This document shows, piece by piece, positions 6,936 through 42,956 of a stretch of 64,000 nt of DNA. Below the pieces are notes generated by a model that saw nothing but the letters and a program-made list of their open reading frames with translations, was not told where the DNA came from and did no database searches. The stretch lies in the NCBI RefSeq assembly GCF_000015565.1, contig NC_008786.1, forward strand, positions 3,162,001-3,226,000, in the 5' to 3' direction. The position numbers and the translations under genes were made by a program. The first letter of the stretch is position 1, and the number at the start of each line of letters is the position of its first letter. Source of the DNA: Verminephrobacter eiseniae EF01-2 (GTDB taxonomy: Bacteria > Pseudomonadota > Gammaproteobacteria > Burkholderiales > Burkholderiaceae_C).

Positions 6936-7268
6936 ATGCGCCAACCTCCGATGTCCATCACTTCCACCCCCGCCACCCCCGCCACGACCCTGCCGGCCAA
7001 GGCCAAAGCACGCTGGGCCCCGCTGTTGCTGTCAGCGGGCCTGGCACTGTGCTTGACGGCAGCCGATGCGCAGACGCGTGAGAAAAAAACCAAAACCAAA
7101 AAAACCAAACCCCCGGCCACGCAGGCGCGCGCCAAGCCCTCGGTCAAAGTCACGCACCAGCCCAGCCCCTCCGAGGAAAGCCGCGCCGAGCGGGAGCGCC
7201 GTCTCTACCGCGAATGCCAAGGGCGGCCCAACGCCGGCGCCTGCCTGGGCTACACCCGAAAGCCGTAG
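6936..7268 (+). CDS. Small exported basic protein of unknown function
   Basis: 110 residues from the ATG at 6936 (another ATG at 6951). No family recognised. A hydrophobic segment, ARWAPLLLSAGLALCLTAADAQ, looks like a signal peptide with cleavage near ADA-Q. It is followed by a Lys/Thr-rich stretch (EKKTKTKKTKPP) and a C-terminal part with two Cys (ECQGRPNAGACLGY) that could form a disulphide. The stop codon TAG (7266-7268) lies in the GTAG flank of the first 158-bp palindromic element, so the original 3' end may have been altered. Confidence 0.55.
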   Translation: MRQPPMSITSTPATPATTLPAKAKARWAPLLLSAGLALCLTAADAQTREKKTKTKKTKPPATQARAKPSVKVTHQPSPSEESRAERERRLYRECQGRPNAGACLGYTRKP

Positions 7269-7426
7269 CGTCGCGTCACCGATCATCTGTCGGTCCGCGC
7301 TGGCCATCGAAGCGCATCGCGGCGTTGCATCGCTGGCCAATACGCTCGGTATGGGCTGCGCGCTGCGCCTTGCGTTGCGCTCCGATGGCTGCGCGCAGCC
7401 TACGACATCTGACCGATGACGCGACA
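7269..7426 (+). repeat. 158-bp palindromic CTAG element, copy 1 (orientation A)
   Basis: One of seven related ~158-bp units in the window, with TGTCGCGTCA-type inverted ends (here CGTCGCG at the left). Flanks are GTAG on the left and CTAA on the right. It sits exactly between two convergent genes. Their stop codons, plus-strand TAG at 7266-7268 and minus-strand TAG of ribD at 7427-7429, both lie in these flanks. The two halves are imperfect reverse complements, so the unit could fold into one long hairpin. It encodes no transposase. Confidence 0.85.
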
Positions 7427-8542
7427 CTAACCCCAAAACGGCTCCCGATCGCGCCAGCGCGCCAGGATGCGCACATCCTCGCCGACCCGCTCCAGGCCGT
7501 GAAAATCCAGCGCCTGCGCCTGCGACAGCGCCGCCAAAGGCGCCAACTGCGCCATGCCCAGGCCCGGCCCGATCAGTTTCGGCGCCAGGTACACCAGCAG
7601 TTCATCGACCAACCCTTGGCGCAGTAACGCGCCATTGAGCTGCTGCCCCGCCTCCACATGCAACTCATTGACCTGCCTGCGTGCCAGGTCGTGCAGCATG
7701 GCCGCCAAATCCACCCGGCCCTGGCTGTCGGGCAGCACGGCCAGCGTTGCACCGCGCTGCTCCAGCGCCCGCCTCTTGGCATCATTTTCTGCGGCGGCGT
7801 ATAGGTGCACTGCACGGTCTGCTGCGAATATGCAAGCATCCAGCGGTACCCGCAACGCGCTGTCGAGCAGCACCAGCGCCGGCTGCCGCTCGGTGTGCAG
7901 CGCGCGCACATCCAGCCGGGGGTCATCGGCCAGCACCGTCCCGATACCGGTCAGCAGCGCACAGGCCCTGGCCCGCCAGGCATGGCCATCGGCACGCGCA
8001 GCAGGCCCCGTGATCCATTGGCTGCTGCCATCGGCCAGCGCCGTCACCCCATCGAGCGACGCCGCCAGCTTCATGCGCACCCAGGGCCTGTGGCGCAGCA
8101 TCCGGCTGAAAAAACCCACATTCAGCTCGCGCGCGGCCTGCGCGCCCGGACCGACCTGCACCGCCACGCCGGCGGCACGCAAACGGGCAAAACCCTGCCC
8201 TGCGACCAAAGGATTCGGATCGGTCAGCGACGCCACCACCTTGGCAATGCCCGCAGCCACCAGCGCATCGCAACAAGGCCCCGTGCGCCCATGGTGCGAA
8301 CAAGGCTCCAGCGTGACATAAGCCGTAGCGCCACGCACCGAATGCCCGCCGGCTGCGGCATTGCGCAAGGCCATGATTTCGGCATGCGCGCCACCCGCAG
8401 GCCCGGTGCTGCCGCGGCCGATCACCACCCCGGCCGCATCGGCAATCACACAGCCGACACGCGGATTGGGTGAAGTGCGATACAAACCCTGATGGGCCAG
8501 GTCCAGGGCCTCGGTAATGGCTGCGGTAATGATGTCTGACAT
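7427..8542 (-). CDS. ribD: Bifunctional riboflavin biosynthesis protein RibD
   Basis: 371 residues from the ATG at 8542; an ATG four codons upstream (8554) is possible. Deaminase/reductase of riboflavin synthesis, converting the GTP-derived pyrimidine to the ribitylamino product. The N-terminal deaminase domain has GAHAEIMAL and the zinc cysteines of LEPCSHHGRTGPCCDAL. The C-terminal reductase domain has VRMKLAASLDGVTAL, a TGIGTVLADDPRL turn, and ELHVEAGQQLNGALL. Its TAG stop lies in the flank of palindromic element copy 1. No other rib gene is nearby. Confidence 0.93.
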   Translation of the reverse strand: MSDIITAAITEALDLAHQGLYRTSPNPRVGCVIADAAGVVIGRGSTGPAGGAHAEIMALRNAAAGGHSVRGATAYVTLEPCSHHGRTGPCCDALVAAGIAKVVASLTDPNPLVAGQGFARLRAAGVAVQVGPGAQAARELNVGFFSRMLRHRPWVRMKLAASLDGVTALADGSSQWITGPAARADGHAWRARACALLTGIGTVLADDPRLDVRALHTERQPALVLLDSALRVPLDACIFAADRAVHLYAAAENDAKRRALEQRGATLAVLPDSQGRVDLAAMLHDLARRQVNELHVEAGQQLNGALLRQGLVDELLVYLAPKLIGPGLGMAQLAPLAALSQAQALDFHGLERVGEDVRILARWRDREPFWG

Positions 8543-8660
8543 AGGTAAACCCATCGATACAAACCCGCCGGCGCACAGCGCTGTTTTGCGCCCGACGGTC
8601 AAACCAAAAGCATCGGCGGTATGCCGGCGGCAACCGGCCCGACGCCACAATTTGCGCCAT

Positions 8661-9332
8661 ATGATGCCCCGCACAAGCCATCGCCCCGGCCCTTCGAAAG
8701 GCTTTAGCCTGCTCGAAGTGCTGGTAGCCATTGTCATTTTGACCTTCGCCATTCTGGGCACCGTGGGCATGCAGGGATACGCGCTGCAGGCCAACCGCGA
8801 GGCGCGCTTGCAGGCCCAGGCCGTCATGCTCGCGAACGAACTGGCGGAAATGATGCGCGGGAACAATGCCATTGCCGTCCACCCCAAAGACAGCAACCCC
8901 TACATGCAGCAGGACGCCAGCAACTACTGCCTGCGCGTCGCCAATGCCAGCACGGGTTGTTCATCCACCACCGAGGTCGCGCAGGCACAAATGACCGACT
9001 GGCTCGCCAGGGTCCATGCCGATTTGCCGCAGGCAAAGGTCAAAGTCTGCTTCGATGGCGCCCCTTACGACACCGAGTCCGGCCTTGCGAAATGGGACTG
9101 TGATGACGCCGGTGACATTGCGTATATCAAGATAGGCTGGACCCGCCGCAGCACCAACACCGGCACCGGCTCCACGGTTGCCGGTTTCGAAAAAGCCACT
9201 GATGACGGCAGCCGCCCCTACGTCATCGTTCCGGTCACCGGCGGGGACCCCGCACCGGCCACCGGCACCACGCCAGCCGCCAGCACACCGGTCGCCAACG
9301 CCGCACCAGCCGCCGGCAGGAGCACCACATGA
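8661..9332 (+). CDS. pilV: Type IV pilus minor pilin / modification protein PilV
   Basis: 223 residues, starting at the first of two ATGs. A type III signal (KGFSLLEVLVAIVIL) places prepilin peptidase cleavage after Gly, with Glu at +5 of the mature protein. The first ~30 mature residues form the hydrophobic pilin helix. PilV-type minor pilins prime pilus assembly together with PilW, PilX and PilY1. The C-terminus turns into an Ala/Pro/Thr-rich tail. The gene starts the pilus operon and overlaps pilW by 4 nt. It is divergent from ribD with ~120 bp between starts. Confidence 0.85.
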   Translation: MMPRTSHRPGPSKGFSLLEVLVAIVILTFAILGTVGMQGYALQANREARLQAQAVMLANELAEMMRGNNAIAVHPKDSNPYMQQDASNYCLRVANASTGCSSTTEVAQAQMTDWLARVHADLPQAKVKVCFDGAPYDTESGLAKWDCDDAGDIAYIKIGWTRRSTNTGTGSTVAGFEKATDDGSRPYVIVPVTGGDPAPATGTTPAASTPVANAAPAAGRSTT

Positions 9333-15610: not shown

Positions 15611-16068
15611 TGGCCTTTCGAAAATCTTCCCGAGGGTTCACGCTGATTGAACTCATGATCACGCTGGCAATCGTGGGGGTGCTCGTTGCCGTCGCTTATC
15701 CTGTTTACACGAACTCGATGATCAAAGGCCGCAGGGCCCAAGGCCGAACAGCGCTGGTGCAACTGTTGCAGCAGCAGGAACGCTATATGACCCAGCGCAA
15801 CAGCTACCTGGCTTTCACCACTGCCAAAGAGACAGGCGTTCCAACCCCAAACACGGCCCCATTCAAAACCTTTTCCGGAGACACATTCGCGGGCTCTTAC
15901 TACGTACTCAGTGCAGTTGCCTGTTCTGAAGCTGCGCCGATCACCACTTGTGTGAAAGTGACAGCCTCTCCGAGACAAGCCGATCCGGAAGTGGGAGATC
16001 TGACGATGACCAGTATCGGCGAGAAAAGCTGTACGGGTTCGGTCCCCCGCCTGTGCTGGCCCTCATGA
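15607..16068 (+). CDS. Type IV pilin-like protein (PilE family)
   Basis: 153 residues. The prepilin signal SRGFTLIELMITLAIVGVLVAVAYPVY is canonical, with cleavage after Gly, Phe at +1 and Glu at +5. The rest resembles PilE-type minor pilins located after pilY1: GRRAQGRTALVQLLQQQERYMTQRNSY, two Cys (VACSEAAPITTCVKV), and a C-terminal Cys pair near the end. The start overlaps the pilY1 stop (ATGA) and the stop overlaps the next gene's ATG. Confidence 0.85.
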   Translation: MMAFRKSSRGFTLIELMITLAIVGVLVAVAYPVYTNSMIKGRRAQGRTALVQLLQQQERYMTQRNSYLAFTTAKETGVPTPNTAPFKTFSGDTFAGSYYVLSAVACSEAAPITTCVKVTASPRQADPEVGDLTMTSIGEKSCTGSVPRLCWPS

Positions 16069-16643
16069 TGAAACGCCATACCGGCAAAGGCCGGGACCAC
16101 GGCTTCACGTTGATCGAACTGATGGTCACCATCGCGCTCGTGGCGGTGATGATGACGCTCGCGGCACCCAGCTTCGTTCAATATCTGCGCAATTCCGAGC
16201 TTACATCGCTGACCAACACGCTTTTGGCCGCCATCAATGCCGCCAAGAGCGAGGCCATGAAATCCGGCAAAAGTGCTTTCGTCCAGCCACTTGGCACGGG
16301 ATGGGCAAGCGGTTGGGTCGTCTATGTCAACCGTGAAAAACAAAGCAACCCCGGCATGGCTACCATCGTGCAAAAACAGGAACCCGTGAAGTCTTATTTC
16401 AGCATCGCGGGAAACGGTACTGCCGGTGAATCCGGTCCGTATATCAGGTTCGATAGTTCCGGGTACTCTGTCACCACCGGCGGGGCGCCTGCAGCTTTGA
16501 CCCTGACGATCCAACGGACCGACACAGACAGTGCGTCGGAGATACGGCACATCATCGTGGCACGGACCGGCAGGGTAAGGGCATGCAAACCGAAATTGAG
16601 CGCCAATAACAACAATGTCGTCAATGCCGGTCCGGACTGCTAG
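16065..16643 (+). CDS. FimT/GspH-type minor pseudopilin
   Basis: 192 residues. The prepilin signal DHGFTLIELMVTIALVAVMMTLAAPSF matches the GspH/FimT family, followed by LTNTLLAAINAAKSEAMKSG and a GWVVYVN motif. It probably belongs to the minor-pilin complex. The ATG overlaps the preceding pilin stop. The TAG stop (16641-16643) lies in the CTAG flank of palindromic element copy 2. This is the last gene of the pilus operon. Confidence 0.85.
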   Translation: MMKRHTGKGRDHGFTLIELMVTIALVAVMMTLAAPSFVQYLRNSELTSLTNTLLAAINAAKSEAMKSGKSAFVQPLGTGWASGWVVYVNREKQSNPGMATIVQKQEPVKSYFSIAGNGTAGESGPYIRFDSSGYSVTTGGAPAALTLTIQRTDTDSASEIRHIIVARTGRVRACKPKLSANNNNVVNAGPDC

Positions 16644-16802
16644 TGTCGCGTCATCGGTCAGATGTCGCAGGCTGCGCGCAGCCATCGGAGCGCAGCGCAA
16701 GGCGCATCGCGCAGCCCATACCGAGCTGTATTGGCAAGCGATGCAACACCGCGATGCGCTTCGATGGCCAGCGCAGACCGACAGATGATCGGTGACGCGA
16801 CA
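16644..16802 (-). repeat. 159-bp palindromic CTAG element, copy 2 (orientation B)
   Basis: Same family as copy 1, inverted. Left flank CTAG supplies the TAG of the fimT-like gene; right flank CTGG. Ends read TGTCGCGTCA and TGACGCGACA. The left arm carries minor substitutions relative to the other copies. Confidence 0.85.
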
Positions 16803-16964
16803 CTGGGGCACTTCAGGTTTCCGGGTGGGTGCCGCAACCCGGCGCGAGGATAATCGCCTTGCCGTGCGCCGGTCAGCCGGTGCGGGTCGCTGGCGTTATT
16901 CCATTCCTGAATCATCCGTGCACTTTGTCGGCGTCGCTTGCCGCATATTCGTACTGCGTGACCG

Positions 16965-26191: not shown

Positions 26192-26480
26192 AACACCCCC
26201 GGCAGGCAAGCCAGCGCCAAACCGCCGCCAGCCGCACAGCATATGGCTGGGCAGGGCAGCCGGCACCAAGCCCGCGCCCAGGCACCAAGCCGGCGACCAG
26301 CAACGCGGCAAGACCGTCTCGCCCGGGCGCTCGCCGTGCGCCAGTGGGCAGCAGTGGGCAGGCCAGCACGGTCGGGGTTGCGCTGTTGAAGGGACGCAGC
26401 ACCATGGTGGCGGGCCGTTGCTTGCACCCGCTGCCGGCAATGCCTTGCCCGGTCAGGGCGGATGTGCACTGTTGCCCTAG

Positions 26481-26639
26481 TGTCGTGTCACGGATCAGAT
26501 GTCGTAGGCTGCGCGCAGCCATCGGAGCGTAGCGCAAGGCGCATCGCGCAGTCCATACCGAGCTGTATTGGCAAGCGATGCAACGCCGCGATGCGCTTCG
26601 ATGGCCAGCGCAGACCGACAGATGATCGGTGACGCGACA
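26481..26639 (-). repeat. 159-bp palindromic CTAG element, copy 3 (orientation B)
   Basis: Member of the seven-copy family, with a perfect CTAG on both sides (26477-26480 and 26640-26643). This is what a 4-bp target duplication would look like. It lies ~290 bp after the pabB-pabC stop. Confidence 0.85.
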
Positions 26640-26643
26640 CTAG

Positions 26644-31154: not shown

Positions 31155-32470
31155 TCAGAACCAGAAATCGAGGGCCTGATCTTCGGATCTCTTGCCGATG
31201 ATGGACAGCGGCATATACGCCGCAGCCCCGAGCACGGTGATGACGCCATCGGCCTTGCCGTCGGCATCGAACCGGCCGCCATCTTCGATCTGAAAATCCA
31301 GCCGCAGGCGGCCGCCTTCGGTCACCATCTTGCCGCCGTAGGGCGCGCTGGCCAGGTTCACCCAGATGCCGGTGTCGTCCTCGATCCAGTAGCCGTTGGC
31401 GCCCTGCGCCGGGTCTACGTACAGGCTGAAACTCTCGCTGCGGCCTGTCGCGCCCGGCGTCGCCGAGAAACTCAGCAGCCCGACGGGCATCTCCATCTCC
31501 GGGGGCAACTGCGCAGGCGCGGCCTTGTGCTCCAGGCTGGTGATGCGTGCCAGGCTGTCGGGGCCGAGCTTGCCATCCCGGCTGCCGGCGACCAGGGTGA
31601 CGGTCTGGGTCGAGGCCACGGCAGATTGTGTTTTGTCCGGGATGCCGTCGCCGTTGCCGTCACCGGTGACGGCGCCATCCGGGCCGGTGATGCCGGGAGC
31701 CTGCTCCTCCCGGGCGTCGGGCAGGCCGTCACGGTCCTGGTCCAGCGGCCTGGATTTCGGGGCCGCTGATGCGCGGGGCGCAGCGGGGGTCGGCGCAGCG
31801 GTATCGTTGGCGACCGGCATCTGGTCGAAACCGGCGGCGGCGTTGCCGGCGGCGTCCTGTATGACGGTGGCGCTGCTTGCGGGGTCGTAGCCGACGCTCA
31901 CCTGCTGGCCCGGTGCCACGGCGGTGGCCAGCGTCAGGGCGACGGTCCCGTCCGCATTCACGCTGACACCGGTGACGGCGTTGGGCTGTCCATCGACCAG
32001 CACGGTAAAGGCGCCGGGGGCGACCTCGTCGGTGGCCTTCAGGGCTTCACCGTAGCGGATCAGCAGTTGTCTGGCGTTCACGGTGATGCTGTCGCCGGCG
32101 TATGTGTCGGTGTCCATATGTCCATGTGTGCGAGTGCGGGCCGCAGGGTGTCGATGTCGAAATGGCGCACTGCCAGCGGCCTGGTGCCCGGCGCACCGGC
32201 ATCGTTGGCCGTGCTGACGCTGAGGCTGCTCGACTGGCGCTGCACGCCGTTACCCGCAGTCAGTGTAGCGCTCCACACGGTATCGGATGGGCGCGTCCAC
32301 CCGCCCAGCCAGCAGTTTTCGGGCGGGGTCACGGTAAAGCCGTTCACGTCCACCGGTTCGGAGAAGGTCAACGTCACTGTGCTGGAGGGGTGGGCCAGGT
32401 TCAAAAGCGCACGCTCGCGCTCCGGCATCGCGGGGTTGCGGGCCATCTCGACGGTCGCGGTGATGGTCAT
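31155..32470 (-). pseudogene. SwmB-domain surface protein, broken by an 8-bp near-duplication
   Basis: The upper part (start 32470, MTITATVEMARN) is an Ig-like segment (SSTVTLTFSEPVDVNGF) running to LRPALAHMD. The frame then shifts, and the lower part (from 32117) continues with TDTYAGDSITVNARQLLIRYGEAL, one SwmB domain, an Asp-rich DQDRDGLPD/GDGNGDGIPD calcium-binding linker, and a C-terminal domain. That last domain is nearly collinear with the end of the 1460-residue protein at 43076-47458. At the junction ATGGACAT is followed by ATGGACAC; removing 8 bases restores one frame. No signal peptide is seen. If the lower half is expressed alone it starts at 32117. Confidence 0.78.
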
Positions 32471-33128
32471 ATGCGGCTCTTTGACGGGGTGCTTGCCATG
32501 GGTGTTCGCCGACTCGGTGCGGGCGCCACATCCCCCTGGCGGGGCATCGCGCCAACGGACTTCAAGGGTCTGGTGGCTGCTGCCACTTCATCGGGGCGAG
32601 GGATGATGGGGTGCGGGGCCGCTGCGCCTGGCAGATGGCAAGGCGCGGGTCTTTGCAGCGGCCGCTTCGGGCGGGCCAGCCATGCGCGGGCGGGCGCAGG
32701 CCCGCTTGGCATCGGCCCGCAGGCACCGGGCTTGGGCCACTGGCCCCGCCGGCGGGCGAACAGGCTGCCGGCATGGCCCATGGCGGCGTGCGCAGCGGGG
32801 CCGGCGTTGCGCGCGCTGACCCTGCGTGCCCCGGCGTACCCGTTGGTTCGTCCGAGGCGCAGTAGCTCTGTGGTGTTCTCTGGTTCCAGCCCGGGCGTCG
32901 CCGCACCGGCACCAGCGCGTGCCGGGACGGGCTGCCTGCGGCACCACGGCAGCGCCCGGTGTGCGCCTGCCCGGCGCCGCTGTGTGGGCGGGCCGTTGAT
33001 TGGACACCGCAGCGTTGCAAGGCGATGTTTCCTCTTTTTCTCACCTGCCTGCGGGCAGGCTCCGGGCGGGGGCGGGGTGGCCCGGCCCCCGTCATGCGCA
33101 AGCCTTGGCCCGGGCTGGCCAAGGCTGG
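32471..33128. other. Gene-poor stretch
   Basis: GC-rich sequence upstream of the broken surface-protein gene. Long frames exist on several strands but none shows protein-like composition or a recognisable motif. Confidence 0.5.
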
Positions 33129-33286
33129 TGTCGCGTCACCGATCATCTGTCGGTCTGCGCTGGCCATCGAAGCGCAGCGCGGCGTTGCATCGCTTGCCAA
33201 TACGCCCGGTATTGGCTGCGCGATGCGCCTTGCGCTGCGCTCCGATGGCTGCGCGCAGCCTACGACATCTGATCGGTGACGCGACA
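33129..33286 (+). repeat. 158-bp palindromic CTAG element, copy 4 (orientation A)
   Basis: Flanks are CTGG on the left and CCAG on the right, which are themselves inverted. It stands 140 bp from the 3' end of abiEii. Confidence 0.85.
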
Positions 33287-33408
33287 CCAGGGCCAGGCTT
33301 TTGCCGGGTGGGGCGGCCCAGGCAGGCGGATGCCGGTTCGACATGGGCGCATCATACGTGGCACCACCAGCCCTGCGAGCGTTGCGGCGGCCACTGCGGG
33401 AATCTGCG

Positions 33409-33443
33409 TCCTCTGCGGACGACTTCGTTCAATCCGCAGAGGA
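33409..33443. repeat. Hairpin at the abiEii 3' end
   Basis: TCCTCTGCGGA pairs perfectly with TCCGCAGAGGA over 11 bp with a 13-nt loop. The outer TCTGCGTC and GACGCAGA (33403-33410, 33451-33458) can also pair. It overlaps the last codons of abiEii. A U-tract is missing, so a role as terminator is uncertain. Confidence 0.5.
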
Positions 33444-34442
33444 TGCAGGGGACGCAGATTTCTTGGGTGTGGATCCCTGGCCCGGCGCGGCGACGGCCTT
33501 TGCGGCCTCCAGCGCCGCTGCGTGCTGGAGATGGGCCTTGGCCTCCTGGAACTGTCCACCGACCGTCGAGGCCAGGTAGTCCAGGTAACGCTCGTCGCCG
33601 AGCGTCCTCTTGACGGTGCCCGCATCGATGAACCTGCGCATTTGGTCCTGGAACGCCGCGCTTTTGACCACCGCCGGAATCATCTCGATGGCCCGGTCGA
33701 GCAGTTCGGGGAAGTTGGGGATGCCGTAGTCCCTGATCTTGCTGGCGACCATGCGGGGGTCGAGCTCGGCGCGCTTTTTGAGCAGCCAGGCGATGTCCCA
33801 GAGGTCGCGGTAGCGGATCTTCGCGGCTGTCGGGGGCAGTGGCGCGCCCTGGTTGTCCACGAGCGAGGTGGGGAAGGCCACGATCTTGTCGGCCAAAATT
33901 TCGGAGACCGATTCGACGTTGACCAGGATTTCCTTCATGCCGCCGAGAAACTCGTAGTTCTGGCGCAGCGGGACGAGTTCGACCTGGTAGGCGGGGATGT
34001 TGGCGATTTCGAGTTTGATTTTCTGGCGGGGCATGGCGGCGTTTTCCGGAGCGGTCTCGATCGAGATCCACCACCTGTCCAGTGCGACGCCTGACCTGCC
34101 GACCGCGCGCCCTTTGGGTTCCTTGGGCTCCTTGACCGTCACGTTCAGGCCGAAACGCAGCCCAATGTGCTTCTCGATGCACTCCTCGATGCCTTGCATC
34201 TTGTCAGCCGTGAAATCGCGGCCACCGGCGAAGTCGAGGTCCTCGCTGAATCGGTCCGAGCCACGGCAGAGCCGAAGCGAGGTGCCGCCCTGGAAGACCA
34301 AGTGCTTGAGCAGGCCGGCGTCATCAAGGGCTTGGAAGATCTCGTGGTGCAGCAACTCCTTTTCCACCACCGGGCGCATGGCCGACAACTGGTCGTCGCG
34401 CATGGCCAACTCGACCATGGCGTTGAAATCTTGCCGGTTCAT
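33429..34442 (-). CDS. abiEii: AbiEii nucleotidyltransferase toxin, type IV TA / abortive infection
   Basis: 337 residues. Nucleotidyltransferase fold of the AbiEii/MenT family: motif HLVFQGGTSLRLCRGSDRFSEDLDFAGG holds the GG-S core and the metal-binding DLD. LADKIVAFPTS follows and then RYRDLWDIAWLL, also conserved. The protein halts growth during phage infection, probably by modifying an RNA. The C-terminus is Ala/Lys-rich. It is coupled to abiEi by an ATGA overlap. A complete and apparently intact module. Confidence 0.9.
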   Translation of the reverse strand: MNRQDFNAMVELAMRDDQLSAMRPVVEKELLHHEIFQALDDAGLLKHLVFQGGTSLRLCRGSDRFSEDLDFAGGRDFTADKMQGIEECIEKHIGLRFGLNVTVKEPKEPKGRAVGRSGVALDRWWISIETAPENAAMPRQKIKLEIANIPAYQVELVPLRQNYEFLGGMKEILVNVESVSEILADKIVAFPTSLVDNQGAPLPPTAAKIRYRDLWDIAWLLKKRAELDPRMVASKIRDYGIPNFPELLDRAIEMIPAVVKSAAFQDQMRRFIDAGTVKRTLGDERYLDYLASTVGGQFQEAKAHLQHAAALEAAKAVAAPGQGSTPKKSASPASSAD

Positions 34443-34993
34443 GCGACCTCCACCGCGTCTTCTTCGAGCGCTTCGCGGTCGATCATGTTGACGTTGCGGC
34501 CGACGCGCAAGAGGTCCCGCACGGCCGCCATCTTGTGGGCGATTCGAAGCGGGCGGCCCTCGATGCGTTGCGTGTGCGCGAGGATGTCGGCGACCGAGCG
34601 CTTGGTGTGGGTGAACTCGATGGTGCCAAACGGCGTCTCGTGGGTGCCGCTGGCCCCCGTGGTCATCACCGTGATCCGGTCCATGGGGATTTGCGAGATC
34701 ACCCCATATTCGGACAGGATAGCCTCCAGGCTCAGGTAGGACAGGGCACCTGGCCGCAGCGCCTTGGCCAAGTCTTCGATGATCCGGCTGTTGCGGCTTG
34801 CGGCGGCAGGGTTCACGTAGATCCCGCGGGCGGCGCGGATCAGCAGCCGGTCGGCGACCATCCGCTGCAAAGACTTCTCCATGGCCTTGGCGCCCTCGCC
34901 GGGGAACATCTTCCCGATATCCGCCTTCGACAAGATGTAGACGCCCCTTTTGTCGAGGGCTGCGAGCCGATGGATGAGGTCGATTTTCTTCAT
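34439..34993 (-). CDS. abiEi: AbiEi antitoxin / transcriptional autorepressor
   Basis: 184 residues. The N-terminal winged-helix part (MKKIDLIHRLAALDKRGVYILSKADIGKMFP, then LQRMVADRLLIRAARGIYV) is the AbiEi DNA-binding domain. The C-terminal part (LSYLSLEAILSEYGVISQIPMDRITVMTTG) carries the antitoxin activity in known members. It should repress its own promoter through the two inverted repeats upstream. ATGA overlap with the toxin gene. Confidence 0.88.
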   Translation of the reverse strand: MKKIDLIHRLAALDKRGVYILSKADIGKMFPGEGAKAMEKSLQRMVADRLLIRAARGIYVNPAAASRNSRIIEDLAKALRPGALSYLSLEAILSEYGVISQIPMDRITVMTTGASGTHETPFGTIEFTHTKRSVADILAHTQRIEGRPLRIAHKMAAVRDLLRVGRNVNMIDREALEEDAVEVA

Positions 34994-35004
34994 AAGTTTT
35001 GCAT

Positions 35005-35026
35005 AACCCTACTCCAATGTAGGGTT
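35005..35026 (-). promoter_or_regulatory. AbiEi operator 1 (candidate)
   Basis: Perfect inverted repeat AACCCTAC/GTAGGGTT with a 6-nt spacer, 12 bp upstream of the abiEi ATG. Confidence 0.7.
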
Positions 35027-35080
35027 CAGATGTCCTTATCGTATTTCTCGGGTTTTGCGGTGTCAATTCAAGTAATCATG

Positions 35081-35102
35081 AACCCTACTCAAAGATAGGG
35101 TA
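35081..35102 (-). promoter_or_regulatory. AbiEi operator 2 (candidate)
   Basis: Second copy of the same inverted repeat, AACCCTA/TAGGGTA, about 76 bp from operator 1 centre to centre. Known AbiEi proteins bind two such repeats in their promoter cooperatively. Confidence 0.65.
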
Positions 35103-35168
35103 TGACTTGACTTGATCGCCGTTCGCTGGCCGCTGGCTCGGGCTGGACGCACCGGGAGCGCCCGCTAG

Positions 35169-35326
35169 TGTCGCGTCACGGATCAGATGTCGTAGGCTGC
35201 GCGCAGCCATCGGAGCGCAGCGCAAGGCGCATCGCTTGCCCATACCGAGCTGTATTGGCAAGCGATGCAACGCCGCGATGCGCTTCGATGGCCAGCGCAG
35301 ACCGACAGATGATCGGTGACGCGACA
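35169..35326 (-). repeat. 158-bp palindromic CTAG element, copy 5 (orientation B)
   Basis: Flanks CTAG (left) and CCAG (right). It lies between the AbiE operators and the next TA-like pair. Confidence 0.85.
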
Positions 35327-35454
35327 CCAGGAAGAAAGCACGAAAACAATAAAAATTGGAGCTTGGCTACCCGCGCGTTGAACAAATCCAGCGTTCCTAG
35401 CTCAAACCGTGCAAAAAAACCTAAAATTCAAAGCAGCAACTCTGTTTTCACACC

Positions 35455-35745
35455 ATGTCTGCCGCATCCTTGATCGCCACCCACATGAACGCGCCCTACG
35501 GCAAGCTCGTAAGCGCCGGGGATGTGGTCGCGTCCTTGAAAAGCGGATTTCTTGCAGCCTCCACCCAGGAGGCGAACGGTATACTGGAGGCACTGTTCAC
35601 GGAAGTGCCGCCAGACCTCATTCTGAAATGCGCCGATCAGATCCAGGCTCCCTTGGGGATGGTCAATCATCTCTACCAAGTGACCCTGGATCGTGGCCTG
35701 ATGCACAGTCAGGCGTGGGAGGATGCTGTGGGTGCTCTTGCGTGA
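35455..35745 (+). CDS. Putative antitoxin partner of an AbiEii-like toxin
   Basis: 96 residues, not recognised as a named family. Visible pieces: MSAASLIATHMNAPYGKLVSAGDVVASL, then PPDLILKCADQIQAPLGMVNHLY. Mostly helical and acidic. Its stop overlaps a GTG (GTGA, 35742-35745) that opens the reading frame of a nucleotidyltransferase toxin relative. That suggests an antitoxin role by position only. Confidence 0.55.
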   Translation: MSAASLIATHMNAPYGKLVSAGDVVASLKSGFLAASTQEANGILEALFTEVPPDLILKCADQIQAPLGMVNHLYQVTLDRGLMHSQAWEDAVGALA

Positions 35746-36479
35746 AGAAGATCACGCCCAAAGACATTCGGCAGCATAAGCTGACCGGCAAATGGCGTTT
35801 GCTAGAGCGCTTTTCAGACGCCACCAACAGGCAAGCCGAGAAAGCTGCCAAAGCGCCCCTGTGACCTGTTCTTGGTGGTGGCACACGCCTCATGCTTGCA
35901 ATCGAGCATCGACTGAGTGATGACGTGGACTTGTTCATCACCGACCCACAGTGGATTGGCTACCTCACCCCTCGGCTGAATGACGCCATTGAGGAAAAGG
36001 TCAAGAGCTATCACGAAGGCACCACGTCCCTCAAGTTGGAGTTTGCAGAGGGTGAGATCGACTACATCGTCAGCACACCGCTGCTGGGTTTGCCGAATGA
36101 ATCATCTCCCGAAAGCGTCTATGAGCTTGAGCCCGTAGCTGAGGTTCTTGCAAAGAAGCTGTTTTATCGAGGGGGCACGCTCACTCCACGCGATCTCTTT
36201 GACTGGCGCATGATCGAGATGCACGTCCCGCAGGAGGACTTGCATCTGGAGAAGATGGCCTATGTCTTGCGAGACAAGCTCGCTGGCATCGCCCAGGCAT
36301 TGGATGCCATAGGCCAGCTAGACCCGAGCCACCCTCGGTGGAGCAGCATACGCACGCCCTACCCGCTTGATTTGCGGGAGACAGTTCATTGGGCGCAAGA
36401 ACGGGTCGCTCACTATCAGGCCATGGCCGAGTCCTACACAGAGCCATCGCAAAACAGCGATTCTTCACCATCTCCTTGA
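35742..36479 (+). pseudogene. AbiEii-like nucleotidyltransferase with an in-frame TGA
   Basis: Read from the GTG at 35742 the frame gives KKITPKDIRQHKLTGKWRLL, then a TGA at 35862-35864 (codon 41). Straight on in the same frame comes PVLGGGTRLMLAIEHRLSDDVDLFI, the nucleotidyltransferase core with GGGTRL and DDVDL. The rest (195 codons from the ATG at 35892) keeps EVLAKKLFYRGG and RDLFDWRMIE. A single TGG-to-TGA change would explain it. A product started at 35892 would lose the GGGTR loop and should be inactive. Confidence 0.72.
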
Positions 36480-36772
36480 ACATTTTGGCGAGCGCACAGG
36501 GCTGCGAGGTGCGCGCCCAGGTCGGCAATACCTGCGCTGCGCAACTCGTCGGCTACCCGCATCGAGCGGGCATCTCTCCTGGGCAGCAGAACCGCCCTGG
36601 CGCCCTCGTAGGGACGCGGTAGCGGGTGCCATAGCCACGTCGCCGGAAAGGCGCGCATGGCCTCGAAAAAGGACTGGGTGACCGCGTCTTCGTTGCTGAT
36701 GACGAACATCTCCACGACATGACCGTTGCCACGCAGCCCATGCGCTGCCCGCTCCAGCGCGTTTTGGCGCGT
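36434..36772 (-). pseudogene. Unrecognised 5'-truncated gene fragment
   Basis: The minus frame is open from an in-frame TAG at 36775 and reads QNALERAAHGLRGNGHVV, then EMFVISNEDAVTQSFFEAMRAF, LWHPLPRPYEGARAV. Composition looks protein-like. A GTG at 36715 could start a 93-residue product. The upstream end coincides with the start of a different plasmid-gene fragment on the other strand, so this looks like a cut gene. Family not recognised. Confidence 0.4.
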
Positions 36773-36774
36773 CT

Positions 36775-37038
36775 ATGGACGTGTCCAAGGCCGATTACAT
36801 GATCGGGGTGGACATGGCCCGCAAGGGATTCAGCCCCGACCAGATCGGCCGGGCCATCGAGCAGGCCAGCCCGGAGCTACCGACCCGCAAGGCAGGCCAT
36901 GAGGCCGACTACGTGGCCCGCACGGTCAAGGCGGTGTTCACCCATCCCGAGGTGGTCAAGTACCAGCAGGAACAGGCCAAGGAAGCCCAGCAGCGCAGCA
37001 GCAGGCGCGAGAGGGACAGCGGCCCCAGCTTAGGCTAA
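36775..37038 (+). pseudogene. C-terminal piece of a conjugative relaxase or primase (TraI/TraC-like)
   Basis: 87 codons: MDVSKADYMIGVDMARKGFS, PDQIGRAIEQASPEL, RKAGHEADYVARTVKAVFTHPEV. This pattern is found at the ends of long plasmid relaxase or primase proteins, in my recollection. The N-terminal catalytic parts are missing, and the 5' boundary abuts the fragment on the opposite strand. It overlaps the parE remnant stop by 4 nt. Confidence 0.45.
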
Positions 37039-37283
37039 AGGTGCCGCTCAGCGTCCTGCCGTTGATGCAGGACGCGAATCACGTCCAGATGGTCGGCGTA
37101 GTCCAGAAAGTAGACCACGTGCGAGCCGCACAGGTACTTCATGAATTCGGGAAAAACATCGGCGAGGCGACCCTGTTTTGTGCCTGCTGCCAGTCCCTCG
37201 AAGGCGGCCACAAGGCTGTGGTGGTAGGTGTCTGCCTGCTCCATCGACCAGTGTTTGAGCGTGTAGAGCCAGATTTCCTCAAG
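37035..37283 (-). pseudogene. parE toxin, 5'-truncated
   Basis: 82 codons of the ParE/RelE fold: LEEIWLYTLKHWSMEQADTY, FPEFMKYLCGSHVVYFLDYAD, DVIRVLHQRQDAERHL. The first ~12-15 residues of a normal ParE and the partner parD are missing. The cut point coincides with the left edge of the partition ATPase fragment on the other strand. Confidence 0.7.
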
Positions 37284-37583
37284 GCGGCCGGCCTGGCGGC
37301 CACCATCCGCGTCATCAAGCGGTTGATTGATTCCGGCCAGAACGGCGAATTGAAGTGGAAGCTGGTCGTCAACCGCTACAAATCGACCAGCAAGGAACAA
37401 ACCGCGCTCGTCGAGCGCATGCGCCAGCAGTTCGGCGCGAACTTCGTGCAATTCACCTTCGGCGAGCGTGTCGGCCTGACCGACTGCCTCGCGCGTGGCG
37501 TGCCGATCTGGGAATACAAGGGCACGCCGACGGAAGTGGGCGAAGCCTGGCGCGCGCTGCCGTCCGCTCTCGGCCTGGCGTGA
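37281..37583 (+). pseudogene. C-terminal fragment of a plasmid partition ATPase (ParA/IncC type)
   Basis: About 100 codons: AAGLAATIRVIKRLIDSGQN, LKWKLVVNRYKSTSKEQTAL, RMRQQFGANFVQFTFGERVGL, WEYKGTPTEVGEAWRALP. The Walker A and B regions are missing. It is followed after 10 nt by the ParB frame, the normal par order. Confidence 0.6.
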
Positions 37584-37593
37584 GGTGGTGAAT

Positions 37594-37893
37594 ATGGCGA
37601 CAACAAAGAAATCATCCGGCGCAGTAATGGACTTCCTGGGTGGCCTCGGCGACGAAGCGGCCAGCGGGCCAGCGATGCGCCGCCCTCGATGTTCGCGGTG
37701 ACGGCCATCCGGCCCGACCCGGAACAGCCTCGAACCGGGTTCGACCAGGAGCGACACGACAACCTGGTGGCGTCCATGAAGGAAATGGGCGTGCTCCAGC
37801 CGTTGCTGCTGCGCGAGACTGGCGAGAACCCGCCCTACGAAATCATCGCCGGGGAACGGCGGTGGCGAGCCGCGAAAGCGGCCGGCCAGCGAG
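37594..37893 (+). pseudogene. parB/korB-like gene, frameshifted and 3'-truncated
   Basis: The ATG at 37594 starts [24 protein letters not shown]. An exact 8-bp tandem duplication GGCCAGCG (near 37660-37676) then shifts the frame. Deleting one copy restores [21 protein letters not shown], then [17 protein letters not shown] and [16 protein letters not shown], the ParB N-terminal domain with its GERRWRA motif. Homology stops near 37890. Confidence 0.72.
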
Positions 37894-37945
37894 CCGGACG
37901 CCGGCAGCTCTGGCGAAGGTGCCGGCGACGATGGCCTGGGCAGAA

Positions 37946-38040
37946 GTGGCGCGATAGACGGGCCTGGGTGGTGCGATGGACGACGGCGGCCGAGTTATCC
38001 ACAAAATTTGCCGTCCGGTGGTGCGATAGACGACGCCGGG
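37946..38040. other. Relic plasmid origin: iteron-like repeats and a DnaA box
   Basis: Three copies of a TGGYGCGATRGACG repeat lie at ~37947, 37969 and 38020, with a fourth degenerate copy near 38136. Between the second and third sits a perfect DnaA box TTATCCACA (37996-38004) next to an AT-rich AAAATTT. The neighbours are partition-gene pieces, which fits a plasmid replication origin. No rep gene is present. Confidence 0.5.
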
Positions 38041-38158
38041 CGCGCGAAGGCGGGCCGGCCAGCGCCTGGTCGGCCTAGCGGATGTGGCACGAAGAACGCG
38101 CGGACTGGATGGGAAGCGGGAAAGGCGGCAGGCCCGGCGCGATGGATGCCGGCGTGCG

Positions 38159-38200
38159 TGGTGACACGAAGGAGCTGGCCAGGCGCGGGGCCTGTCACCA
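38159..38200. repeat. 42-bp TGGTGACA/TGTCACCA element, copy 1
   Basis: Begins TGGTGACA and ends TGTCACCA, with AGCTGGCC and GCGCGGGGCC inside. Two more copies of exactly 42 bp occur at 41303 and 41362. It lies directly before palindromic element copy 6. Confidence 0.65.
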
Positions 38201-38206
38201 GCCTAG

Positions 38207-38365
38207 TGTCGCGTCACCGATCATCTGTCGGTCTGCGCTGGCCATCGAAGCGCATCGCGGCGTTGCATCGCTTGCCAATACAGCTCGGTATGGGCTGCGC
38301 GATGCGCCTTGCGCTGCGCTCCGATGACTGCGCGCAGCCTACGACATCTGATCCGTGACGCGACA
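38207..38365 (+). repeat. 159-bp palindromic CTAG element, copy 6 (orientation A)
   Basis: Perfect CTAG on both sides (38203-38206, 38366-38369). The right CTAG supplies the TAG stop of the resolvase gene on the minus strand. Confidence 0.85.
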
Positions 38366-38917
38366 CTAGCGGCGGCCGCGCTGCGGCGTCTGCACGTCGA
38401 AGCCGGGCAGCAGCTCGCTCAAGGGCTGCGCGCCGGCAGTGCGCGGCCGCAGGGCGGGCGCGGGCGGCGGTGCCGGCGACTTCGCGGCCGAACTGGGGGG
38501 AAAGGTGCCTTGCTCCACCAGGCGGCCGTACCAGCCGGCCAGGTTATTCTTCGCAAGCTCCATACTGAGCTTGCGAGTGTCGCGGGTCAGGTGTTTCGTG
38601 ATGTGGACGGCGACGCCCTTGGCCATGAAGTCGAGCACCTGCAAGGCCGATTCGCCCAGGCGCGAGATTTCGGGCGACAAGATCACGTAGCCGCGCTGGG
38701 CCTCGGCCAGCATGTCGGCCAGGGCACGCTTGCGCCACGACTTGGCACGGCTGCCGATTTCCTCGACGATCTTGAGCGGCGCGAACCCGTGCGCGTTGGC
38801 GTACTCCAGCAGGCCGAGTTTCTGGTTCGCCGCGTTCTGGTCGTCGGTCGAAACCCGCAGGTATGCGAAATACCTGCTCGCAGCGGCCGTTACCGTTGGT
38901 GTTTTCTTGGGCTTCAT
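38366..38917 (-). CDS. Serine-recombinase N-terminal domain with a foreign C-terminus
   Basis: 183 residues. Residues ~15-110 are a resolvase/invertase catalytic domain: YFAYLRVSTDDQNAANQKLG with the nucleophile Ser, ADMLAEAQRGYVILSPEISRL. The normally conserved Arg after RLG is Glu here (SRLGESALQ). After VAVHITKH the usual long helix and HTH are replaced by LTRDTRKLSMELAKNNLAGW and a Pro/Ala-rich tail. Recombination activity is therefore doubtful. The stop is in the flank of palindromic element copy 6. Probably a deletion fusion of plasmid genes. Confidence 0.6.
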   Translation of the reverse strand: MKPKKTPTVTAAASRYFAYLRVSTDDQNAANQKLGLLEYANAHGFAPLKIVEEIGSRAKSWRKRALADMLAEAQRGYVILSPEISRLGESALQVLDFMAKGVAVHITKHLTRDTRKLSMELAKNNLAGWYGRLVEQGTFPPSSAAKSPAPPPAPALRPRTAGAQPLSELLPGFDVQTPQRGRR

Positions 38918-38976
38918 GGGCTGTGTTTTGCATAAAGGTATGAAGAGCTTTAAATAATACGCTGATGGAACAAAAT

Positions 38977-39000
38977 AAACGGGTTATTAATTAGCCGTTT
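38977..39000. promoter_or_regulatory. AT-rich inverted repeat upstream of the resolvase gene
   Basis: AAACGG and CCGTTT arms 6 bp long flank an AT-rich centre (GTTATTAATTAG). It stands ~60 bp before the resolvase start in an otherwise GC-rich region, a plausible operator or promoter. Confidence 0.4.
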
Positions 39001-39027
39001 TCATACCGGCGAAATCATGGTTTTTTT

Positions 39028-39261
39028 GAGCCTGGTTGGCGCATCAAGTACGCCGTCGATAGCCTCCCGGCCACGCTGGCCCAGGTGGTGCAGTACCTGG
39101 GCGACGGCGGCGAACTCAAGCCGGAGAAGGTCGGCGAGATTTGGGCCGGCCTGGCCGTCTTGCAGAAGGCTTTGAAGAAGGCGGGCCACCCGCGACCGGC
39201 CAAGCCGAAGAGGTCGCCGAAGCCCATGCCCGGCCAGGTTGGCCTGCCGCTGGAATCTTGA
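39028..39261 (+). pseudogene. 5'-truncated plasmid gene fragment
   Basis: A frame without a start codon: EPGWRIKYAVDSLPATLAQVV, LKPEKVGEIWAGLAVLQKALK, then a basic Pro/Lys-rich end. Protein-like codon use, family not recognised. Confidence 0.4.
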
Positions 39262-39323
39262 TCGCGGGGCACAAATGCCCTACAATAGAGGCATGTTTAG
39301 ACTCGACCATGAAGGGGCCCGGA

Positions 39324-39536
39324 ATGGCTAAGTCACTGCTCGACAAGATCGGCCTGGAACGCTCGAACAAGCTGATGCGTGAAGCCACGCACCAGGCCAT
39401 CGCCGACGCGCACGCGCACGGCCTGCCGGTCACGGCGGACGTGGGCGGCGTGCTCTCCAAAATCTTCCCTGACGGCCATGTGGAACCCGTGAAGCCCGCG
39501 CCGGCAATCGCTAAAAAAGAGACCTTGGCCGCATGA
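39324..39536 (+). CDS. Small protein preceding the zeta toxin, probable antitoxin
   Basis: 70 residues from the ATG at 39324 (another ATG at 39309), with an AAGGGG stretch upstream. Sequence pieces: MAKSLLDKIGLERSNKLMRE, DAHAHGLPVTADVGGVLSKIF. It is coupled to the zeta gene by ATGA overlap. Unrelated in appearance to the classical epsilon antitoxin; the role is inferred from position. Confidence 0.6.
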   Translation: MAKSLLDKIGLERSNKLMREATHQAIADAHAHGLPVTADVGGVLSKIFPDGHVEPVKPAPAIAKKETLAA

Positions 39537-40471
39537 CCGAAATCCCCCCGCAGGAAGTAGAAGCGGGGCCACGGATGATCGTTTTCGCCGGGCCGAACGG
39601 CTCGGGGAAAAGCACTGTCACGGATGGCCTCAAGCTCGATGAAGCGTTCCCCGGCGTCTACATCAACGCCGACGACATCGCGCGCACCGAGCTGGGCCAC
39701 ATCCCCGATGTGACCCAGCGCAACCTGGATGCCGCGAAGCTGGCCGAACAGCGCCGCAAGGATGCGTTGGAGAAGGGCCAGCCCTTTGCCTTTGAAACCG
39801 TCATGTCCACGCCTGGCAAGCTCGCCCTGCTTCAAGAAGCCAAGGGCAAGGGCTTCCAGGTCGAACTGGTGTTCGTCACCACGCGCGACGCTGACATCAA
39901 CATCGCCCGCGTATCGAACCGTGTGGCCCTCGGCGGCCACCAGGTCGAGCCGGACAAGGTGCGCGAGCGGTACGAACGTGCAATGCAGCTTCTGCCCAGC
40001 GCCGTCGAGCTAGCCGACACGGCCGACGCCTTCGACAACAGCGGCACAGAGCCGGTGCATGTGGCGATGAAGCGCGACAAGGCCGTGGAGCTGGTCAACG
40101 CGGACAAGGCCCCGGCCTGGGTCGCCGAGCGCTTGGCCGAGCCGTACCGCGAGCGCATGGATTCGCGCGCGCAGATCGCCGCCGCGTTCCAGCAGGCTGC
40201 GGCCGGTAGCGCGGCCGGCCTGCCGCCCGTGCTCAAGGATGCGGAAATTGGCCACGGCAAGACCTACGCGGGGCTGGTGCTCGAAGTGACGAAGCGCCAC
40301 GCCTTGCAGAAGGCCGGGGCGAACGTGTACGTGGTTCACGACCGGGCGCTGTGCCCGCCTGTGAGTTTGGAGAAGGGAAAAACCGCGACGCTCGCCTACC
40401 AATACGAGAAGGGCGGCAAGCATGTCGAGCCGGCCCGCAATGCGGGCCAGAAGAACGAGATAGGACGATGA
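39533..40471 (+). CDS. Zeta-toxin-type kinase with a C-terminal KfrB-like domain
   Basis: 312 residues. Residues ~10-210 are a zeta/UDP-N-acetylglucosamine kinase-like P-loop protein: MIVFAGPNGSGKSTVTDG (Walker A), PGVYINADDIARTELG, PFAFETVMSTPGK, VTTRDADINIARVSNRVALGGH. The last ~75 residues (HGKTYAGLVLEVTKRHALQK, VYVVHDRALC) resemble the KfrB domain of IncP-type plasmid proteins. Zeta toxins phosphorylate UDP-GlcNAc and poison peptidoglycan synthesis. Preceded by a coupled small gene. The frame appears intact. Confidence 0.8.
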   Translation: MTEIPPQEVEAGPRMIVFAGPNGSGKSTVTDGLKLDEAFPGVYINADDIARTELGHIPDVTQRNLDAAKLAEQRRKDALEKGQPFAFETVMSTPGKLALLQEAKGKGFQVELVFVTTRDADINIARVSNRVALGGHQVEPDKVRERYERAMQLLPSAVELADTADAFDNSGTEPVHVAMKRDKAVELVNADKAPAWVAERLAEPYRERMDSRAQIAAAFQQAAAGSAAGLPPVLKDAEIGHGKTYAGLVLEVTKRHALQKAGANVYVVHDRALCPPVSLEKGKTATLAYQYEKGGKHVEPARNAGQKNEIGR

Positions 40472-40475
40472 GGCC

Positions 40476-41302: not shown

Positions 41303-41344
41303 TGGTGACACCTGGCGCAGCTCGACCGCGCGGGCCTGTCACCA
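41303..41344. repeat. 42-bp TGGTGACA/TGTCACCA element, copy 2
   Basis: Begins TGGTGACA and ends TGTCACCA, with AGCTCGACCGCGCGGGCC inside. It shares length and core with the copy at 38159. Confidence 0.65.
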
Positions 41345-41361
41345 TCTACAGCGCGCCGGTT

Positions 41362-41403
41362 TGGTGACGTGGCCAGCTCGCCGGCGCGGCCGATCTGTCA
41401 CCA
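41362..41403. repeat. 42-bp TGGTGACA/TGTCACCA element, copy 3
   Basis: Begins TGGTGACG and ends TGTCACCA, with AGCTCGCCGGCGCGGCC inside. 17 bp after copy 2. Confidence 0.6.
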
Positions 41404-41500
41404 TAAGACGGCTAGACCTTCTTGCTGGTGAATGACTGCTTCGGCGGGGTGTACTGGCCGCTGGCGACGCGCACAGCGTACCGCTCCAGGGTCAGGGGTT

Positions 41501-41923: not shown

Positions 41924-41934
41924 GGCGTTCTGAT

Positions 41935-42270: not shown

Positions 42271-42415
42271 TTCGTAGCTCCTGTGCCAATGCCTCGGCCA
42301 CTTTCAGCCGGGCGCGGATGATGTCCATGTCCGCCTTCGGCGTGGCAATCCCGCTCTTGCTCTTCCTGTTCAGGTAACAATACAAGCACCACAAGCGCAA
42401 GACATATGTCGCAAA
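42251..42415 (-). pseudogene. Gp49/HigB-type toxin remnant
   Basis: The C-terminal ~40 codons read LNRKSKSGIATPKADMDIIR, ARLKVAEALAQELRNAK, the typical end of RelE-superfamily Gp49-like toxins. Upstream codons (FATYVLRLWCLYCY) are only loosely toxin-like, and the N-terminal half is missing. Confidence 0.6.
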
Positions 42416-42552
42416 ACAGGTGTTTTACGACACCTCCACAACACCTCCACAACACCCGCCGAAAGTGATCGCGCAGCCTGTCCCAAAATGTGCGGAAAAC
42501 AGTGTCGCAATATGCCTACATCCGGAAACCATTTTTTGATGGTTATCCGTCT

Positions 42553-42627
42553 ATGTTGGTTGGTTACATGCGCGTGTCGTCGGACTCCGACCGGCAGAGC
42601 ACGAACTTGCAGCGCGACGCGCTGCTC
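42553..42627 (+). pseudogene. TnpR-type resolvase, N-terminal stub
   Basis: Twenty-five codons, MLVGYMRVSSDSDRQSTNLQ and RDALL, are the start of a Tn3-family serine resolvase with the catalytic Ser. Homology then ends. It lies just after a stretch (42420-42550) that could be what is left of the res site. Confidence 0.6.
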
Positions 42628-42724
42628 GTTCCAGAGCGGCGGCAACATCATCGACCTGGATGCGTTCCTGGCCGGGCTGGAGTTTGGATGACGGAAATTT
42701 CTGGGGTTCCGGCGTAGCCCCCAG

Positions 42725-42880
42725 TGTCGCGTCACCGATCATCTGTCGGTCCGCGCTGGCCATCGGAGCGCAGCGCAAGACGCATCGCGCCGCCCATACC
42801 GATCTGTATTGGCAAGCGATGCAACGCCGCGATGCGCTTCGATGGCCAGCGCGGACCGACAGATGATCGGTGACGCGACA
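42725..42880. repeat. 156-bp palindromic CTAG element, copy 7 (hybrid)
   Basis: Flanks CCAG and CCAA. Unlike the other copies, both ends carry the same arm type: the first 41 bases are the exact reverse complement of the last 41. The middle then follows the orientation-B sequence. It overlaps the last two bases of the transposon remnant. Confidence 0.85.
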
Positions 42881-42956
42881 CCAAGCCGCGCCGCCTTCCC
42901 GGGCGCATCGCTGCCTTTGCCAACGGTGCCGATGTCTGCGCCAGCATCGCCAATGG

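Follow-up and report, generated by a model that had tools for sequence, protein, structure and literature searches.

Evidence for an IS630-Type Miniature Element Targeted to CTAG in an Abundant Palindromic Repeat of Verminephrobacter eiseniae

INTRODUCTION

A 64,000-bp stretch of the Verminephrobacter eiseniae EF01-2 chromosome (bases 3162001 to 3226000 of the 5,566,749-bp contig NC_008786.1; 66.0% GC; termed the window throughout) contains seven copies of a palindromic element of about 158 bp, each flanked by the tetranucleotide CTAG or by variants of it. The question raised by this locus is what the element is and how it came to occupy these sites. A reading of the letters alone, referred to here as the sequence-only reading, had suggested that a non-autonomous element was inserted specifically into CTAG at high density and lent TAG stop codons to genes; it had also proposed a genome-wide search for the unit, a comparison with empty sites and a search for a full insertion sequence (IS) with the same ends. 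The analyses described here indicate, with a probability of about 0.93, that the element is an IS630-type miniature inverted-repeat transposable element (MITE), without genes of its own, which has spread by CTAG-targeted insertion. The element is short and transposase-free, has inverted terminal repeats and many similar copies, and in one clear case exhibits duplication relative to an empty site. Loci and genomes are designated, where needed, by our own L and G numbers.

RESULTS

Structure of the seven copies in the window

All seven copies were found where the sequence-only reading had placed them, with lengths of 156 to 159 bp (positions are numbered from the first base of the window).

Copy 1: 7265..7430, core 7269-7426 (158 bp), plus strand, flanks GTAG and CTAA; flank TAG is the stop of a ribD-like open reading frame (ORF) at 7427-8896 (minus strand) and of an ORF at 6765-7268 (plus strand)
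Copy 2: 16640..16806, core 16644-16802 (159 bp), minus strand, flanks CTAG and CTGG; left-flank TAG is the stop of a GspH/pilin-like ORF at 15948-16643, ending at 16643 (plus strand)
Copy 3: 26477..26643, core 26481-26639 (159 bp), minus strand, flanks CTAG and CTAG
Copy 4: 33125..33290, core 33129-33286 (158 bp), plus strand, flanks CTGG and CCAG
Copy 5: 35165..35330, core 35169-35326 (158 bp), minus strand, flanks CTAG and CCAG
Copy 6: 38203..38369, core 38207-38365 (159 bp), plus strand, flanks CTAG and CTAG; right-flank TAG is the stop of a resolvase-like ORF at 38366-38917 (minus strand)
Copy 7: 42721..42884, core 42725-42880 (156 bp), strand not assigned, flanks CCAG and CCAA

Both orientations were seen, the flank pairs agreed with those claimed, including CTAG on both sides of copies 3 and 6, and four ORF ends were located in a flank TAG, at 7268 (+), 7427 (−), 16643 (+) and 38366 (−). 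The common ends and internal near-palindrome of that reading were also present. The element consists of inverted terminal repeats of ∼24 bp (TGTCGCGTCACSGATCAKMTGTCG) and an imperfect internal palindrome, and all 14 ends carried the terminal word TGTCGCGTCA, exactly in 12 and with a single mismatch in the other 2. The ends of copy 7 were nearly symmetric (53-nt arms, 96%). As a bare word, TGTCGCGTCA was only moderately unusual, with 15 occurrences in the window versus 6.5 expected and 1 of 100 shuffles reaching 15.

Copy number and uniformity in the genome

Paired perfect 10-bp ends (TGTCGCGTCA and TGACGCGACA) separated by a gap of 125 to 150 bp occurred 227 times in the genome, whose second contig has 31,194 bp, while a reversed-pattern control gave 0, indicating that ends paired at this spacing are far beyond chance. 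A 20-position end word, allowing up to 2 mismatches, had 303 and 306 matches on the two genome strands. BLAST searches of a 44% sample, consisting of evenly spaced chromosome stretches and the window (2.458 Mb), detected 148 places; 132 of these were two-ended copies, and the other 16 were pieces, mini-elements or copies cut by stretch edges. Extrapolation gave 335 places per genome and somewhat fewer copies (about 320 to 340). The genome-wide search thus yielded several hundred near-identical copies; relative to a genome mean of ∼4 per 64 kb (335 places in 5.57 Mb), the seven copies of the window represent only a mild excess.

The element made up 0.89% of the sampled DNA. Orientation was even (68 of the 132 two-ended copies), the length was 158 to 159 bp in 118 of these copies, with a longest copy of 192 bp, and median identity to the consensus was 98.7% (88 copies). 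Mini-elements of 36 to 47 bp, comprising little beyond the two ends and having CTAG or CCAG on each side, were present at L087:5288, L286:18403 and L299:11863. The first of these, a solitary end by initial appearance, was considered as a possible autonomous element and rejected, being a 36-bp element of little but ends. One MITE copy (L036:14309-15929) was interrupted by ∼1.6 kb of DNA that resembled an IS by eye.

Targeting of CTAG and occupancy of sites

Over the 264 ends of the 44% sample, flank positions −4 to −1 were C in 247, T in 240, A in 216 and G in 257. CTAG was present on both sides of 72 of the 132 two-ended copies and on at least one side of 111, whereas in the DNA outside the elements CTAG made up 0.8% of NTAN sites and occurred at 0.13 of the second-order expectation (a depletion of about sevenfold). 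When both flanks of a copy had an intact TA, the inferred target was CTAG in 45 of 50 cases. These frequencies support the proposal of target-specific insertion of a non-autonomous element at CTAG. Among the CTAG-type sites of the sample, 139 were filled and 228 were copy-free, an occupancy of 38% (139/367), or 24% on a strict count including only copies with CTAG intact on both sides. A strict-target element can, by these figures, fill from a quarter (strict) to two fifths of sampled CTAG-type sites.

Other IS630-type elements are resident in this genome, which also encodes an IS630 transposase of 412 aa at L054. A second IS630 group (ends GTCCACTGCACCATTG, ∼1.1 kb) was located in CTAG at L063, L065 to L068, L071 and L073, and at L065 and L068 a MITE copy starts exactly where an IS of this group stops. 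A third group (ends GAGCATTTTTGA; L055 to L060 and L062) provides a contrasting case, in which the flanks are simply TA and the bases outside them vary.

Duplication of the target

CTAG is its own reverse complement; hence, CTAG on both sides of a copy is uninformative as to whether a target was duplicated or the inverted repeat is longer. Duplication relative to an empty site was clear in one case, the 192-bp copy flanked by GCAC on both sides. Three paralogous empty stretches in L042 (best identity, 92%) have one tetranucleotide at this place, GCAC in two and GTAC in one, so that the empty-site comparison found the tetranucleotide single in the paralogous empty sites of a non-CTAG copy and double at the copy. 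Further exact 4-bp flank repeats in the genome were GTAC/GTAC and CTCG/CTCG (left/right flank). An empty stretch paralogous to the surroundings of copy 3 (84% over 118 bp) had a single CCAG at the site, and tandem neighbouring copies had one tetranucleotide in common. Aligned joined sites were available for 19 copies, and 3 of these were used (the GCAC copy, copy 3 and copy 1). A 4-bp duplication is the most likely outcome of insertion.

Alternatively, the same MITE may duplicate only the 2 bp TA, as canonical IS630/Tc1-mariner elements do, with the terminal G and C belonging to the element; two flanking CTAGs would then simply follow from a C-TA-G target. This was our first model; it was given up for a 4-bp duplication after the GTAC, GCAC, GTAG and CTAC cases and is kept as a rival which we regard as rather unlikely. 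Several flank pairs (GTAG/CTAG, TTAG/CTAG and CTAG/CTAA, plus TTAG/CTAT in another genus) fit this model in that the inner G or C is kept while the outside varies, and copies with intact TA varied more at the outer than at the inner base (8 versus 1, GTAC/GTAC being left out), which is a better fit to a TA duplication with terminal G and C than to 4 bp. Another IS630 group of the genome, with GAGCAT ends, obeys the TA rule, and the IS630-family element ISY100 is reported to duplicate TA (PMC2170065). A TA rule with terminal G and C leaves unexplained, however, the exact GCAC/GCAC and GTAC/GTAC repeats in the genome and, likewise, GTAG/GTAG (3 of 54) and CTAC/CTAC (1 of 54) among the related ISs described below.

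The direct flank repeats also bear on a different class of repeat, in which the unit is a repetitive extragenic palindrome (REP) or bacterial interspersed mosaic element (BIME) spread by a REP-associated tyrosine (RAYT, Y1) transposase and CTAG belongs to the repeat itself instead of being a target that was duplicated. REPs linked to RAYTs have a tetranucleotide of the GTAG type, and the palindromic CTAG can be read as part of an inverted repeat; folded as RNA, copy 6 gave one long, strong hairpin on either strand (z of −8.3 and −11.9). This class is nevertheless very improbable given the direct repeats GCAC/GCAC, GTAC/GTAC and CTCG/CTCG, the single GCAC in paralogous empty sites, the single tetranucleotide held in common by tandem pairs and the resemblance of the ends to those of DDE-type IS630 elements.

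Location of copies relative to genes

A simple coding model was applied to a 30% sample containing 91 copies and predicted 1,064 genes, 161 of which end in TAG; these counts are approximate, since one or more ORFs, including the pilin-like one at copy 2, escaped prediction. Copies were located exactly at the TAG of a predicted gene in 16 of 91 cases (none at two), versus 13 of 151 copy-free CTAG sites; 52 of these 151 sites were inside predicted genes. The lending of TAG stops to genes is thus the weaker part of the sequence-only reading, stop-codon placement being for the most part a side effect of CTAG targeting. In congener G030 (79% identical in ribD), the counterpart of the small plus-strand gene at copy 1 has its TGA stop at the same codon as the flank TAG, and ribD ends with a TGA two codons before the flank-TAG end of the host ribD. 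The small ORF (6765-7268) had no Pfam match.

Copies were placed between predicted genes in 63 of 91 cases (39 in tandem, 14 in convergent and 10 in divergent gaps), while 26 overlapped ORFs and 2 were at stretch edges. The intergenic majority and the very stable hairpins are features expected if the unit were a functional RNA, terminator or regulatory repeat held in place by selection. We consider there to be hardly any prospect of this being correct: no Rfam match was obtained at gathering thresholds over the 64 kb, the two orientations are about equal (68/132), the 26 overlaps and the spread over tandem, convergent and divergent gaps alike do not fit such a role, and none of 46 congeners has the end word (see below).

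IS630-family relatives

Terminal repeats like those of the MITE were detected on IS630-family ISs at L172, L174, L175 and L200 to L203. L174 encodes a transposase of the IS630 family (NF033545, 101.6 bits with a cutoff of 100; Pfam DDE_3). L172, L174 and L175 are decayed ISs in which the transposase frame runs into this terminal repeat and stops 7 bp before its outer end, and both terminal ends are present in L172. A scan of named genomes found 547 loci encoding transposase relatives; among the best 80 of these, a script paired inverted ends beside TA at 54. CTAG was present on both sides of 31 of the 54 and another exact 4-bp repeat was present at 4 (GTAG at three and CTAC at one), the rest comprising 7 with unequal flanks and 12 that were wrongly or unclearly paired. 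ISs of Polaromonas CG9_12 (1175 to 1177 bp) start with TGTCGCGTCATG. The search for a full IS with such ends was thus successful, with full-length, CTAG-sited examples, but in other genera. Six loci on viral contigs also encode a relative.

In the V. eiseniae genome itself, 27 DDE_3 matches were detected, 26 of them above the cutoff. Ends in common with an autonomous element of the same genome, which are usual for MITEs but not required, were not found. Two candidates for the parent were rejected: IS701 (DDE_5) had no match in the genome, and no matching IS end was seen beside a transposase remnant located among three MITE copies (L181).

Distribution among congeners and other genera

The 20-position end word (up to 2 mismatches) was absent from 46 congeners; a control pattern matched in 1 of the 47 genomes of this search. 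In many congeners, the match was confined to the central ∼55 bp. Element positions 55 to 110 resemble the middle of many congener repeats that have different ends (e.g., L032 and L033), as if the MITE families had a core in common, judging by the likeness of their middles.

A family-wide search of 399 genomes, including that of V. eiseniae (control pattern, 2 of 399), detected the end word in 10 other genomes. The MITE itself, at 158 to 159 bp, was present in G421, G366 and G350, with a more distant form (68 to 71% identity) in G338. Flank pairs of the relatives in other genera (n = 10) included 4 with CTAG on both sides and 3 more with one CTAG. Three of the genomes contain the decayed ISs at L172, L174 and L175. 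In G171, similar ends formed two pairs with a spacing of 158 bp, yet a later DNA search gave no match there, and single end words without a paired end in G128, G333 and G339 may be due to chance.

Alteration of CTAG flanks

Altered flanks consisted mainly of CTGG and its complement CCAG, followed by CTCG. In 121 full-length copies, T:A to C:G changes were observed at 47 of 484 T/A positions of the flanks versus 69 of 6,762 A/T positions of the body (18 of 6,762 if only rare variants are counted), a rate about ten times that of the element's own A/T bases, although a few CTGG/CTGG or CCAG/CCAG copies may simply show the sequence first targeted. The flank change was still found at 23 of 252 positions when only copies lacking a private body change were counted. 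CTGG has been called the commonest form of decayed CTAG in Salmonella (PMC5337935).

At L319:406-1935 (chromosome near 1298363), a gene for a C5-cytosine methylase precedes one for a Vsr mismatch endonuclease, and this pair is a possible cause of CTAG scarcity. One tentative explanation of the flank data, which we hold to be somewhat less probable than the contrary, is that active destruction of CTAG has been under way in this genome during the lifetime of the burst, one candidate agent being the very-short-patch system to which the Vsr and C5-methylase genes would belong. The same data could be read as alteration of one end during insertion itself. No significant dependence of flank change on body divergence was detected in the 121 copies (none versus at least one changed flank, P = 0.30), which speaks against slow accumulation and leaves alteration at insertion as a rival. 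In the Vsr context test, C at −5 was observed for CTGG in 18 of 84 cases and for CTAG in 14 of 131 (P = 0.048, uncorrected), which is suggestive only; the companion test for CCAG was opposite in direction (3 of 69 versus 15 of 132; P = 0.12). If active destruction is correct, the insertions, nearly all of which would have begun with two CTAG words, constitute a natural mutation-accumulation experiment on CTAG and the cause of CTAG avoidance is directly measurable. With ∼670 ends in the genome by extrapolation, the flanks supply several hundred replicates of a CTAG word whose origin is known, and these can be used to test why CTAG is rare in bacteria.

Other features of the window and genome

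In the window, a large protein encoded at 43076-48004 (minus strand) has nine SWM_repeat stretches (direct repeats ∼320 to 360 bp apart), and a second gene at 31155-32117 (minus strand) has one. A toxin-antitoxin-like cluster (AbiEii twice, a ParE-like protein and a Zeta-toxin with a KfrB domain) occupies 33429-40471 and adjoins the resolvase-like gene. Elsewhere, a second palindromic repeat family (e.g., L043:15564-15744 and L037:3252-3330) forms short tandem runs with a period of ∼60 bp, 61 runs accounting for 0.30% of the 44% sample. L139 (chromosome 1600001-1620000) contains a CRISPR-like array with 170 copies of a repeat containing CTGCCGGATAGGCAGCTC, which we take to be of type I-F; among the sampled 20-kb stretches, copies of this repeat were confined to L139. 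An 8-kb match of contig 1 to Xylella taiwanensis plasmids had 85% identity over 63% of its length; extensive identity of Xylella plasmids with pVEIS01, the V. eiseniae plasmid, is on record, and a published review puts the V. eiseniae genome at 5.6 Mb with 65.3% GC (PMC3975124).

DISCUSSION

The data are best explained by an IS630-type MITE. An IS630-family transposase acting in trans would have recognized the ends of the element and joined them to CTAG with a 4-nt stagger, such that each insertion would be bounded by CTAG on both sides and would make two new target sites. A CTAG stop of a gene (NNC TAG) should remain readable after such an insertion; persistence of the stop, with CTAG kept at both ends, may help copies to survive. 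The burst probably occurred after the split from the sampled congeners or after acquisition from elsewhere in the family. As no parent transposase was found in the genome, the copies can probably no longer move unless mobilized by some other resident IS630 element that targets CTAG.

Some observations, in addition to the outer-base variation described above, weigh against this explanation. No parent IS was found in the whole host genome; the nearest transposase is 48% identical and belongs to an IS which sits in CTAG and has other ends, GTACCGCTGCACAGAG. Of the 19 joined sites, 16 were unusable (10 tandem neighbours and 6 with alignments that were too weak), and the sole empty-site comparison with a congener reaches 73% identity over the site. 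Finally, congener G034 has a full-length relative with 74% identity and different ends, indicating that the element cannot be regarded as entirely alien to the genus.

Among known systems, the closest likeness is to the ISs of Polaromonas sp. CG9_12 and P. glacialis (L200 to L203), which have the same terminal start as the element, TGTCGCGTCA(T/C)G, encode relatives of the L174 transposase and have CTAG flanks at three of four (L202 has CTAG/CTAC). These ISs differ in having 1165 to 1177 bp with a transposase sequence, as opposed to 158 bp without one.

The repeat VeiPR1, which is reportedly credited to a thesis by Pinel (2009), is probably this element, an identification made by abundance rather than by comparison with a VeiPR1 sequence: the element is the most abundant interspersed palindromic family that we met in the genome, at 0.89% as against 0.30% for the other palindromic family. 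VeiPR1 is described as a very abundant palindromic repeat that fills ∼2.3% of the V. eiseniae genome and is reportedly found in no other species (PMC3975124); the element differs in its measured share of 0.89% and in having relatives in other genera. A betaproteobacterial repeat reported in PMC3110155 is different from this element. A literature search covering titles and abstracts found no paper describing the V. eiseniae element as a MITE.

Similar bacterial elements are on record. MITEPsy1 of Pseudomonas syringae pv. phaseolicola is reported to insert at CTAG or YTAA with a 4-bp duplication but is 100 bp long, has ends like those of ISPsy2 (assigned to IS5 with a question mark) and has 5 listed chromosomal copies (PMC3189936). 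MITECca01 of Cardinium cOegib is likewise a lineage-specific MITE of a symbiont, with 169 copies constituting 3.5% of the chromosome, but is described as IS982-derived, with intact copies of the parental IS still present (PMC9769881). ISY100 belongs to the IS630/Tc1-mariner family, as the ends of the element suggest for its own origin, and differs in being autonomous and in its TA duplication (PMC2170065). A symbiont repeat that had been named but, in the searched literature, left undescribed is probably explained as a strict-target MITE of IS630 type.

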